Shown in pieces: positions 31,060 to 63,423 of a stretch of 64,000 nucleotides of DNA. The stretch is from Clostridiaceae bacterium (GTDB lineage: Bacteria; Bacillota; Clostridia; Oscillospirales; Acutalibacteraceae): assembly GCA_016288315.1 (NCBI GenBank), contig JAEEYU010000055.1, forward strand, positions 90,417 through 154,416, read 5' to 3'. Under the pieces are notes generated by a model. It searched no databases, was not told the origin of the DNA, and saw only the letters and a program-made list of their open reading frames with translations. How positions within the stretch are numbered: position 1 is the first letter of the stretch; the number at the start of each line of letters is the position of its first letter. The position numbers and the translations under genes are program-made.

Positions 31060-31088
31060 TTGAAATTTATAATTATAAATATTATAAT
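31060..31088 (+). promoter_or_regulatory. sigma-A-like promoter with closely abutting SD for the radical SAM gene
   Basis: TTGAAA - 17 nt - TATAAT, then 6 nt, then GGTGAT (31095-31100). Confidence 0.7.
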
Positions 31089-31104
31089 TCTTACGGTGAT
31101 AAGT

Positions 31105-31983
31105 TTGTTGTGTAATATTTGCCCCAGAAAATGTAATATTGACAGAAATGTATTAACAGGTTACTGCTCTTCGGGTTCTCAAATTAAGATTTCAAGGGCG
31201 GCACCTCATTATTGGGAAGAACCTTGCATAAGCGGAACCAAAGGCAGCGGAACGGTGTTTTTTACAGGATGTTCGCTTAAATGTGTTTTTTGTCAGAACT
31301 ATGAAATCAGCCATCTGAATAAAGGAATAAGTGTTTCTCAGACAGAACTTCTGAAAATATTTGAAAAGCTTGTTGAGTCGGGAGTTCATAATTTGAATCT
31401 TGTTACTCCTACGCACTACACTACGGAAATATGCAAAGCTTTGAAAGAATTCAGGTCACCGGTTCCCGTAGTGTGGAATTCATCCGGTTATGAAAGAACG
31501 GAAACTCTTAAAACACTTGAAGGTCTTGTAGATATTTATTTGCCCGATATTAAGTTTTATGACAGTAATATATCATTAAAGTATTGCGGTACGGATGACT
31601 ATTTTGAGTATTGTTCTTCGGCTTTGAAAGAAATGTTCAGACAGGTCGGAACATTAAAAACAGATAAAAACGGTATAGCCCGGAAGGGCATGATAATCAG
31701 GCATCTTGTTTTACCTGGAAATGTTTCGCAATCATTTAGAATACTGGAGTATTTATCAGATAATTTTCCCGGAGATATTTCAATAAGCATAATGCGTCAA
31801 TATATTCCATGCGGCGATGCTGTGAATATGCCGCCTATTGACAGAAAGCTCTCAGCTAAAGAATATAAACTGGTAAAACAAAAAGTATTGGAGCTTGGTT
31901 TTGAAAATATATATTTTCAGAGTTCCGAATCTGCAGAGAATAGTTATATTCCCGATTTTGATTATGAAGGTATTGACCTGTAA
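31105..31983 (+). CDS. radical SAM protein (PflA-activase-like family)
   Basis: LLCNICPRKCNIDRNVLTGYCSSG, FFTGCSLKCVFCQNYEIS. Start placed at TTG 31105 (GTG 31096 or TTG 31108 possible); the track start 30874 lies inside the ileS T-box. Confidence 0.88.
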   Translation: MLCNICPRKCNIDRNVLTGYCSSGSQIKISRAAPHYWEEPCISGTKGSGTVFFTGCSLKCVFCQNYEISHLNKGISVSQTELLKIFEKLVESGVHNLNLVTPTHYTTEICKALKEFRSPVPVVWNSSGYERTETLKTLEGLVDIYLPDIKFYDSNISLKYCGTDDYFEYCSSALKEMFRQVGTLKTDKNGIARKGMIIRHLVLPGNVSQSFRILEYLSDNFPGDISISIMRQYIPCGDAVNMPPIDRKLSAKEYKLVKQKVLELGFENIYFQSSESAENSYIPDFDYEGIDL

Positions 31984-54192: not shown

Positions 54193-54221
54193 TTGATTTA
54201 ATATAATGCTTATGATAAAAT
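54193..54221 (+). promoter_or_regulatory. sigma-A-like promoter closely abutting SD AGGTGAT
   Basis: TTGATT - 17 nt - TAAAAT - 6 nt - GGTGAT (54228-54233) - 5 nt - ATG. Confidence 0.65.
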
Positions 54222-54238
54222 TATTCAGGTGATAAATT

Positions 54239-54943
54239 ATGAAAATAGGTGTCTTTACCGACTCGCACTACTGCACATTGAAATTTGATGATGACAGAAA
54301 TCCGGAACTTACAGCCGGCAAAATTAAGTCAATGCTGGATGATTTTAAAAACAATGGCATTGACAGAATATTCTGCCTGGGCGATTTACTTCATTTTGAA
54401 ACTGATGCTAAGCAAAATCTGAATAATCTTGAGTATATAGCGGATTTAATTAATTCATATAATATTCCGTTCACGCTTATTCCCGGCAACCATGACTGCG
54501 AAATATTCACAAAAGAAGAATATGCAAAAATATCGGGCTTTGATATTGCGCCTTTCTGTTATGAAACCGAGAAATCAAAACTGATTTTAATTGACGCCTG
54601 CTGTGATGATGACGGGACTCCTCATCTTCCGCCTGAAAACGACTGGACGAATTCTTATGTTCCGCTTTCTCAGATTGAATGGTTAAAAAAAGAATTATCT
54701 TCCACGTCGAAAAATTGTTATGTTTTTACGCATCAATGCCTCGATTACAGTGTTGAGTGTCACCATATTATCAGAAATGCAGTTGTTATAAATTCAATCA
54801 TTTATGATGCAGGCAACGTTAAACACGTTTACAGCGGTCATTATCACCCGGGTAAAGAAAGCGTTATCAATTCAATAGATTATACTACTTTGAAAGCGAT
54901 GGTTCTCGGAGAGGATAATTCTTATATTATAATTGAAATATAA
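54239..54943 (+). CDS. calcineurin-like metallophosphoesterase
   Basis: GVFTDSHYC, FCLGDLLHFE, LIPGNHDCE, YVFTHQCLD, VYSGHYHPG. Confidence 0.92.
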   Translation: MKIGVFTDSHYCTLKFDDDRNPELTAGKIKSMLDDFKNNGIDRIFCLGDLLHFETDAKQNLNNLEYIADLINSYNIPFTLIPGNHDCEIFTKEEYAKISGFDIAPFCYETEKSKLILIDACCDDDGTPHLPPENDWTNSYVPLSQIEWLKKELSSTSKNCYVFTHQCLDYSVECHHIIRNAVVINSIIYDAGNVKHVYSGHYHPGKESVINSIDYTTLKAMVLGEDNSYIIIEI

Positions 54944-61051: not shown

Positions 61052-61080
61052 TTGACAAAATCAATATATTTTTATATATT
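61052..61080 (+). promoter_or_regulatory. sigma-A-like promoter closely abutting SD GGTGAT
   Basis: TTGACA - 17 nt - TATATT - 6 nt - GGTGAT (61087-61092) - 4 nt - TTG. The ORF-track start is the -35 hexamer itself. Confidence 0.75.
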
Positions 61081-61096
61081 TACATGGGTGATAGAT

Positions 61097-61750
61097 TTGA
61101 AAAAACATATTTGCAGTATTTTTGCCGCAGGGACTTATTATAATTATGAAAAACCGGTTAAAGGCAGTCTCGTTATTGCCGCAGACGGCGGCTGTGATTA
61201 TTTGCTTTCGCAAAATATTAAACCTGATTATGCAATCGGCGATTTTGACTCAGGCAAATGTCCTGAAGATATTCCTGCAATAAGATTAAATCCCGTCAAA
61301 GATGAAACAGATACTTTTGAAGCTGTTAAACTCGGTATTGAAAAAGGCTGCAATGAATTTCATTTTTTCGGTGCAACAGGAGGCAGAAGTGCACATACAT
61401 TTGCAAATATTCAGACTCTTGCCATGCTGGCACAAAAGGGTATGAGCGGTTTTATTTATGCAGACAATGAAATCTTTACCGTAATACATGATGGAAAGAT
61501 TACATTTGATAAAGAATCGAAAGGATATCTGTCTGTTTTTTCACTTGATATAAAATGTGATGGCGTCTTTGAAAAAGGTCTTAAATATTCGCTTGATAAT
61601 TATAATCTTTCAAATTCATACCCCGTAGGCGTCAGCAATGAGTTCGTAGGCAATGAAGCCGAAATATCTGTCAAAAGCGGTAATCTTTTGATTATTTACA
61701 CGTTCAACGCAAAAGTTAAATCAATAACAAATAAATCCGGCGATGAGTAA
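61097..61750 (+). CDS. thiamine diphosphokinase
   Basis: VIAADGGCDYLLSQNIKPDYAIGDFDSG, KDETDTFEAVKLGIEKGCNEFHFFGATGGRSAHTFANIQTL. Confidence 0.94.
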   Translation: MKKHICSIFAAGTYYNYEKPVKGSLVIAADGGCDYLLSQNIKPDYAIGDFDSGKCPEDIPAIRLNPVKDETDTFEAVKLGIEKGCNEFHFFGATGGRSAHTFANIQTLAMLAQKGMSGFIYADNEIFTVIHDGKITFDKESKGYLSVFSLDIKCDGVFEKGLKYSLDNYNLSNSYPVGVSNEFVGNEAEISVKSGNLLIIYTFNAKVKSITNKSGDE

Positions 61751-61773: not shown

Positions 61774-62472
61774 TTATTTGGCTAAAAGAACTTCTTTGTT
61801 TGTTCCGTAAAAGATATCTTCACGGTTGCTTATAATTTTACAGAATTCATCAAATTCGCTCCACCTGTTGAATAAATCAAATTCATAAGAATGTCCCCAG
61901 ATATAAAACAATTGAGGTTTGTCCGTTTCAAGTTCAACAAATCTTTTACCGAGTTCAAACATTTTATCAAAATCATTATGCCAGATTGTCGGCTCAAATT
62001 CAAATAAATTGCTTTGCAGTTCAAAAGAGTTATTGCTTATAGCTGTTCTGCAGTATTTTATTCCTGTATTATTTTTTATCAATTCTGAAACTCTTCTGTC
62101 AAAATTAACGCCCCCGCTGGGATAAGCAAAGCCGACAACTTCATAACCTGCAAGCTCAGATAATGCAATTCTGTCTTCTTCAACTTCTCTGATTATTTCT
62201 TCATCGCACAGCTCGGGAAGTCTGGGATGAGAAACCGTGTGTGAAGCAATTTCATGACCTTTGTAAATATCTCTTATTTCTTCAGGTCTGGGTTTACAAT
62301 GAGCAACAGTTATGCCGTTGATTACAAGCAGATTTGCATTTCCAAGCAATCCGGAATTAATGTTGAAAGTGCATTTTAATCCGTATTTATTCAATATATC
62401 AATAAAACGTCTGTCCTGAGTCACTCCGTCATCATAACTGAATGTTATTGCCTTCATTTTTCCGTTAAACAC
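61774..62472 (-). CDS. polysaccharide deacetylase family protein
   Basis: AITFSYDDGVTQDRRFIDILNKYGLKCTFNIN, EIASHTVSHPRL, VGFAYPSG. GTG start at 62472 after AGAGGTGAT. Confidence 0.92.
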   Translation of the reverse strand: MFNGKMKAITFSYDDGVTQDRRFIDILNKYGLKCTFNINSGLLGNANLLVINGITVAHCKPRPEEIRDIYKGHEIASHTVSHPRLPELCDEEIIREVEEDRIALSELAGYEVVGFAYPSGGVNFDRRVSELIKNNTGIKYCRTAISNNSFELQSNLFEFEPTIWHNDFDKMFELGKRFVELETDKPQLFYIWGHSYEFDLFNRWSEFDEFCKIISNREDIFYGTNKEVLLAK

Positions 62473-62490
62473 AATAATCACCTCTTTTAA

Positions 62491-62519
62491 ATTATACAAT
62501 AATAATCTATAATTATCAA
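62491..62519 (-). promoter_or_regulatory. sigma-A-like promoter for the deacetylase gene
   Basis: On the minus strand: TTGATA - 17 nt - TATAAT - 8 nt - GGTGAT - 4 nt - GTG. Confidence 0.75.
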
Positions 62520-62529
62520 ATGTATTTTA

Positions 62530-62558
62530 TTGCTAAATAGTAATTTTTATGATATTAT
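62530..62558 (+). promoter_or_regulatory. sigma-A-like promoter closely abutting SD AGGTGAT for GDPD
   Basis: TTGCTA - 17 nt - TATTAT - 6 nt - GGTGAT (62565-62570) - 4 nt - ATG. The ORF-track start 62530 is the -35 element. Confidence 0.65.
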
Positions 62559-62574
62559 TAATCAGGTGATTTGT

Positions 62575-63423
62575 ATGATTGATTTTGAAAAATCCATATT
62601 TGAAAACACAAGAGATAATCTAATTCTTTGCGCTCACAGGGGACTTTCTTCGGCGGATATTCCATGCAACACGTTATCCGCTTTCAAAGCGGCTGTTATG
62701 GCAGGTGCAGGTATGGTTGAACTTGATGTTTCGATCAGCAGAGACGGTAAATATTTTGTGTTTCATCCGGGTATGGAGCATGCACATCTGAATAAAAAGA
62801 AATTAATTGCCGTTATGAAATCCGAAAAGGTTAAAAAACTGAAGTTTGTCAACCAGGATAACTGTGCGACTGATTTCGGCATAAACAAACTTGAGGAAAT
62901 ATTTAATTATCTTAAGGGCAAGTGTTATATTAATGTTGACAAATTCTGGACTGATGTTCGCGGTATTACCGAATGCATCCGCAAATGCGGAGTGGAAAAA
63001 CAGGTAATTGTCAAAACAAGCACAAATAAAAAACATATTGATGAAGTGAAAAAGTATGCACGAGATTTAATGTTTATGCCAATTGTCAGGCATAAAGACG
63101 ATATCACAGATTCTCTTGTTGAACAAGGCATCAACTGCATCGGTGCTGAAGTGCTTTTCCAAAAAGAGGATGAACCCGTTGCATCTGAAGAATACATCAA
63201 TTATATGCACAGTAAGGGCAGAATAGTTTTTGCCAATGCAATTGTTTATAATAAAAATGATGTTCTTGCAGCAGGACACTCGGATGATAATTCGATTTCA
63301 ATATCTCCGGATTATGGCTGGGGCTGGCTGGCAGACAAGGGCTTTGACGTTATTCAGACAGACTGGTGTTTGCTTGCAAAAGATTATCTTGAAAAAAAGA
63401 ATGCGGTGTTTTTCAATGATTGA
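62575..63423 (+). CDS. glycerophosphodiester phosphodiesterase family protein
   Basis: LCAHRGLSSADIPCNTLSAFKAAVMAGAGMVELDVSISRDGKYFVFHPG. Confidence 0.9.
   Translation: MIDFEKSIFENTRDNLILCAHRGLSSADIPCNTLSAFKAAVMAGAGMVELDVSISRDGKYFVFHPGMEHAHLNKKKLIAVMKSEKVKKLKFVNQDNCATDFGINKLEEIFNYLKGKCYINVDKFWTDVRGITECIRKCGVEKQVIVKTSTNKKHIDEVKKYARDLMFMPIVRHKDDITDSLVEQGINCIGAEVLFQKEDEPVASEEYINYMHSKGRIVFANAIVYNKNDVLAAGHSDDNSISISPDYGWGWLADKGFDVIQTDWCLLAKDYLEKKNAVFFND

Follow-up and report, generated by a model that had tools for sequence, protein, structure and literature searches.

Promoters predicted to start transcription at the ribosome-binding site in a rumen-type Clostridia genome and its relatives

Genes and promoter-SD modules of the window

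The window, i.e. the whole 64,000-nucleotide stretch of DNA that was analysed, corresponds to C70:90417-154416 within a 2.15-Mb MAG that is 78% complete. The named GDPD relatives nearest to the window gene belong to rumen and gut Clostridia/Ruminococcaceae MAGs. Four modules in which a promoter is followed after 6 nt by GGTGAT, as well as the related promoter of a divergent gene, are listed below together with the genes that they precede.

31060-31107, plus strand: radical SAM module; -35 TTGAAA at 31060, 17 nt, -10 TATAAT at 31083-31088, tcttac, GGTGAT at 31095-31100, aagt, TTG at 31105
31105-31983, plus strand: radical SAM gene (PF04055)
54193-54241, plus strand: metallophosphoesterase module; -35 TTGATT at 54193, 17 nt, -10 TAAAAT at 54216-54221, tattca, GGTGAT at 54228-54233, aaatt, ATG at 54239
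54239-54943, plus strand: metallophosphoesterase gene (PF00149)
61052-61099, plus strand: thiamine diphosphokinase module; -35 TTGACA at 61052, 17 nt, -10 TATATT at 61075-61080, tacatg, GGTGAT at 61087-61092, agat, TTG at 61097
61097-61750, plus strand: thiamine diphosphokinase (TPK) gene (PF04263, PF04265)
61774-62472, minus strand: polysaccharide deacetylase gene (PF01522)
62470-62519, minus strand: divergent polysaccharide deacetylase promoter; -35 TTGATA at 62519-62514, -10 TATAAT at 62496-62491, gap of 8 nt, GGTGAT at 62482-62477, tatt, GTG at 62472-62470
62530-62577, plus strand: GDPD module; -35 TTGCTA at 62530-62535, -10 TATTAT at 62553-62558, taatca, GGTGAT at 62565-62570 (predicted +1), ttgt, ATG at 62575-62577
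62575-63423, plus strand: GDPD gene (PF03009 and C-terminal DUF4996)

All five promoter-SD strings claimed in the first-pass annotation are present in the sequence as quoted there. It had given 54193, 61052 and 31060 as positions of genes; the sites exist, but these coordinates mark the starts of the -35 boxes. The deacetylase promoter, described earlier as a near-identical form, obeys the same rule, although its GGTGAT lies at gap 8: the longer SD GAGGTGAT begins at offset 6 after the -10 box, which explains the difference. The C-terminal DUF4996 (PF16387) of the GDPD protein (62575-63423) is a domain of unknown function.

Enrichment of the 6-nt gap in the genome

Counts for this genome cover 1.69 Mb of its 2.15 Mb. 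The scan proposed with the original observation (a TATAAT-like hexamer, N6, GGTGAT, N3-5 and a start codon) returned 8 sites in 1.69 Mb, while the same scan gave none at gaps 2-5 and none at gap 7. For the shuffled control proposed alongside it, gap 6 occurred 7 times in the real intergenic DNA against a mean of 0.05 and a maximum of 1 in 60 dinucleotide shuffles.

For a search independent of gene calls, a sigma-A matrix was trained de novo on this genome and both strands were scanned, which yielded 962 promoters; these are predictions, made by a matrix trained on the genome that it then scans. Downstream of them GGTGAT was found 8 times at offset 6, never at offsets 2-5 and 7, and at most twice at any other offset up to 44. 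The excess at offset 6 has a Poisson p of 3e-6 (corrected for 51 offsets and calculated from 7 deduplicated open-frame genes). The matrix scores of all eight sites range from 12.6 to 16.7, whereas shuffled upstream DNA attains 11 in only about 12 of 749 genes, and each site has a -35 TTGnnn, a 16-18 nt spacer and a -10 TAnnnT, as expected for sigma-A. In every case the start codon follows the -10 box at a gap of 15-18 (predicted leader 9-12 nt), GGTGAT lies 3-6 nt ahead of it, and the SD match starts at the predicted +1 and not upstream.

Four of the eight sites are located in the discovery window and thus do not constitute independent support. The remaining four, which by themselves are far above chance expectation, precede a MoaB/Mog-type gene on C12, an alpha/beta-hydrolase-like gene on C7, a 243-aa gene on C33 and an 810-aa gene on C24; among these, the Pfam check covers the MoaB-type gene only. 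Evidence independent of the discovery comes from these four outside sites, a second genus (G198) and a sample of the family (see below), and the promoter-SD observation is confirmed.

Over all SDs of this genome, the leader distribution has a shoulder at -10 to start gaps of 16-25 and its main mode from gap 29, and the split into short and long leaders is clearer among GGTGAT genes. A separate feature is a sharp spike at gap 29, corresponding to a predicted leader of 23 nt: exactly this gap is shared by 23 predicted promoters, compared with 5-7 and 13-14 for gaps 28 and 30, respectively. The spike marks the onset of the main leader mode.

Related genomes and SD-class controls

In G198, a genome of another genus of the same family (0.71 Mb), GGTGAT was absent from offsets 1-5 and then occurred 8, 4 and 4 times at offsets 6, 7 and 8. 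The excess at offset 6 has a corrected p of 6e-6; some of the G198 stretches were picked for containing TATAAT, a choice from which sites with other -10 boxes are free. Several of the G198 short-leader genes (set L101 to L129) are AraC-regulator-like, as judged by N-termini only (L107, L118, L123, L128, L129), hinting at a bias toward low-expressed regulators among them.

The family sample comprised up to 339 genomes searched with exact TATAAT, and gave 138 places among the first 150 matches listed, repeat copies of one G262 element being counted once. Among these, gaps 0-5 total 11 places, and gaps 6, 7, 8 and 9 have 24, 15, 8 and 11, respectively, with a second rise near gaps 18-22. In the AGGAGG control from the same family there was no rise at 6, and the peak lay at 12-20, which rules out the geometry as a general trait of all SDs. 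At the phylum level the GGTGAT gap peak is blunter (6-10), but when the SD match is taken as a whole, its first base is still most frequent at offset 6-8. The geometry is specific to the SD class within single genomes, too: offsets 6-8 were found in 9 of 17 GGTGAT genes and 8 of 209 GGAGG-type genes of the window's genome (p 1e-7), and in 13/28 versus 3/82 in G198.

Thus, the exact 6-nt gap reported initially holds as the mode, but it is not unique; it is rather a sharp lower boundary with a tail that declines over 7-11. A distance of 6 nt is a hard floor for the SD behind its promoter, and GGTGAT-type genes most often lie exactly on it.

Conservation among orthologs

The geometry is usually conserved between orthologs that share about 70-90% protein identity, and N6 and the promoter letters vary. 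Counting the gene of our genome in each case, offset 6 was observed in 4/4 MoaB/Mog-type genes (N6 aaaatc, taaagc, tagttt and atattg), in 3/3 metallophosphoesterase genes (window, G228 and G015; tattca, aattta and aagaaa) and in 3/3 GDPD genes (window and same-genus L138 and L160; taatca, attaaa and aattaa, the last with GGTGAA). Retention was partial for TPK, with offset 6 in 2/3 (offset 6 in L160 and 7 in L138; spacers tacatg, aaaaaa and aatatac), and lowest for radical SAM, with offset 6 in 2 of the 8 examined (window and G228), the offset growing to about 11-12 in G015 and G145 and the leaders being ordinary in further species. The deacetylase geometry is not retained in L138 and L160.

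GDPD orthologs with 60% identity or less carry ordinary leaders with GGAGG-type SDs. The short-leader design is therefore not essential to the GDPD gene, and an element bound to the gene family is ruled out. As the spacing is kept within the genus and absent from distant orthologs, the geometry is held over genus-scale time without being tied to the gene. Three MAGs titled Kiritimatiellae (L189, L195 and L201) have Clostridia-like GDPD loci, with identical upstream DNA in L189 and L195, and are probably mislabelled or mixed bins.

SD register and the predicted transcription start

Where leaders are shortest, the SD typically corresponds to the 3' part of AGGAGGTGAT, the extended form, placed in the usual register to the start codon. 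Its form changes with the -10 to start gap: GGTGAT at 16, AGGTGAT/GAGGTGAT at 17-18, and a AAGGAGTGAT-like sequence at 20. In the family sample, the SD extension 'GA' ahead of GGTGAT was present at 24/68 long-gap sites and at 0/24 gap-6 sites (p 3e-4); because of this difference, selection for SD pairing appears to reach no further than the first G where GGTGAT occupies the predicted +1. The base before GGTGAT in the same sample is C in 15/38 cases, against a background of 15% (p 2e-4), which would fit a pyrimidine(-1)/purine(+1) transcription start. When the window's genome and G198 only were considered, A as the preceding base was non-significant (p 0.36). Together, the loss of GA and the C at -1 represent indirect sequence evidence for a TSS at the first G.

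By the usual anti-SD pairing, GGUGAU would bind AUCACC at the 3' end of the 16S rRNA. A search for this 16S 3' end (GGNTGGATCACCTCCTT) in 20 relatives, some of them 98-100% complete, gave 0/20 matches, and the rRNA is probably absent or masked in this genome collection.

Proposed mechanism and alternative explanations

We suggest that, in this rumen-type Clostridia genome and in related ones, the promoters of some genes are positioned such that transcripts would start at the ribosome-binding site. Specifically, it is quite likely that these are sigma-A promoters with +1 at the first G of GGTGAT, giving a minimal, SD-led leader of about 10 nt. From an ordinary promoter (-35, 17-nt spacer, -10) the polymerase would initiate 7 nt past the -10 box, giving a leader that consists of GGUGAU and about 4 nt. 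GGUGAU would represent the 3' half of AGGAGGUGAU, the extended SD, in normal register to the start codon; with so short a leader, the AGGAGG half would come before +1. Since that half would lie outside the transcript, selection would keep GGUGAU alone, and translation would proceed through normal SD pairing by the 3' SD half in fixed register. If the SD has to lie within the transcript, and transcription starts 7 nt after the -10 box, a distance of 6 nt from this box to the SD is what one would expect. Sequence statistics, conservation among orthologs and the missing upstream SD extension at +1 thus support the earlier proposal that these mRNAs start at or beside the SD, with a leader of about 10 nt.

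The same facts could be read as the signature of a dual-function element, in which GGTGAT serves both as the initial transcribed sequence (G+1 G+2, GTP-sensitive) and as the SD, so that one hexamer co-regulates transcription and translation. The mode lies exactly at 6 in two genera, GG would occupy +1/+2, and the distance to ATG falls within a narrower range in the module (4 nt in 14/18 versus 23/64 elsewhere). Nevertheless, we regard this reading as unlikely: a truncated SD register accounts for the same facts without a second function, offsets 7-11 fall off smoothly, and there is no common regulon among the phosphoesterases, TPK, radical SAM, MoaB-like genes and the AraC-type regulators of G198. 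A common regulon as such was rejected, as no shared function was seen in the gene set. Slightly more doubtful still is a fuller version, a bacterial composite initiation element in which the initiating bases would set the promoter response (e.g. to the GTP level), the SD would be 5'-terminal, and the chemistry of the 5' end together with start slippage by 1-2 nt would directly switch translation on or off. A regulatory role for the short leader is speculative. What stands of the 'one compact expression cassette' of the first-pass annotation is the compact and enriched geometry, but not the dual function, since a fixed SD register cut by the 5' end suffices.

Leaderless mRNAs, known from mycobacteria and others, resemble the modules in having a TSS very near the start codon, and GGTGAT could in principle act as start-codon context instead of an SD, with translation beginning at the GUG at +2. 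At 4-nt spacing this GTG is in frame with the ATG, and the frame is open in 12 of 14 such module genes. We find this very improbable, as a stop occurs in that frame in the other 2/14, spacings of 5 (window metallophosphoesterase), 3 (L047) and 6 (L039) also exist, the metallophosphoesterase conserves its ATG but not the GTG frame across species, and GGTGAT is found at longer gaps with the SD-like GA extension. With the GUG out of frame or stopped in several module members, leaderless initiation was rejected as a general rule on the grounds of variable spacing and closed frames. Leaderless genes have their start within about 5 nt of +1, whereas here the annotated start is at +10 to +13, the genes keeping an SD and a predicted leader of about 10 nt. 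In this genome it is rare for a strong promoter to have a start codon at or beside the predicted +1, and in clostridia with mapped transcripts about 2-4% of these are leaderless (PMC9045289, PMC5171806). Hardly any weight can be given to a compositional artefact, whereby AT-rich upstream DNA would supply TATAAT-like hexamers near any SD while the real promoters lie elsewhere. Admittedly, the matrix was trained on the same genome and the first sighting was confined to one window, but the 8 sites against 0.05 in shuffles led us to reject a chance origin; the gap distribution is moreover a cliff and not a plateau, the AGGAGG control has no peak at 6, and the spacing is conserved in orthologs.

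Comparison with known systems

The closest parallel to the proposed SD-led leader is the 'Short 5'UTR' group of Thermotoga maritima, with experimentally mapped leaders of 11-17 nt that contain an SD and are set apart from a 26-32 nt group (Latif et al. 2013, PMC3636130). These leaders were described as the minimum to recruit the ribosome, leaderless transcripts were undetected, and the authors found no cause for the group in expression, RBS strength, operon layout or function (PMC3636130). Both cases have an SD inside a very short leader, which here is predicted from sequence alone. In T. maritima, a deep-branching hyperthermophile, the leader distribution is bimodal, whereas in the window's genome the predicted distribution over all SDs displays a shoulder rather than two clear modes. 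In the Clostridia studied here, moreover, short leaders go together with GGTGAT, the 3' SD half, and the SD starts at the predicted +1. Short leaders are thus already known, and GGTGAT at +1 is a variant of which we found no earlier description in open-access papers.

Mapped clostridial leaders peak at 20-32 nt (PMC5651825, PMC9045289). The modules share with the standard clostridial sigma-A and AGGAGG leader the -35/-10 pair, the 17-nt spacer and the SD register to ATG, but in the standard leader the SD normally begins 12-25 nt after the -10 box, instead of 6. A TISU-like element also has one short sequence beside the TSS that serves transcription and translation initiation on a very short leader; as it is eukaryotic, bound by YY1 and devoid of SD pairing, the analogy is architectural only.

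The rule of an SD truncated at +1 in fixed register would predict the TSS to the nucleotide in uncultured Clostridia, as well as start codons, TTG and GTG included, and provides a cause, open to test, for the short-leader peak that was left unexplained in T. maritima. In annotation it may separate genes that would have no room for leader-based control, and in which 5'UTR regulation is presumably absent, from genes with ordinary leaders.

Module copies at contig ends

Identical copies of a module, e.g. TATAATGAATATGGTGATGAAAATG, were observed at contig ends of single genomes, namely G187 (C2, C5, C15, C18 and C25, near position 50), G185 (C4, C7 and C38) and G262 (ten contigs). This suggests a multicopy mobile element whose gene uses the short leader.
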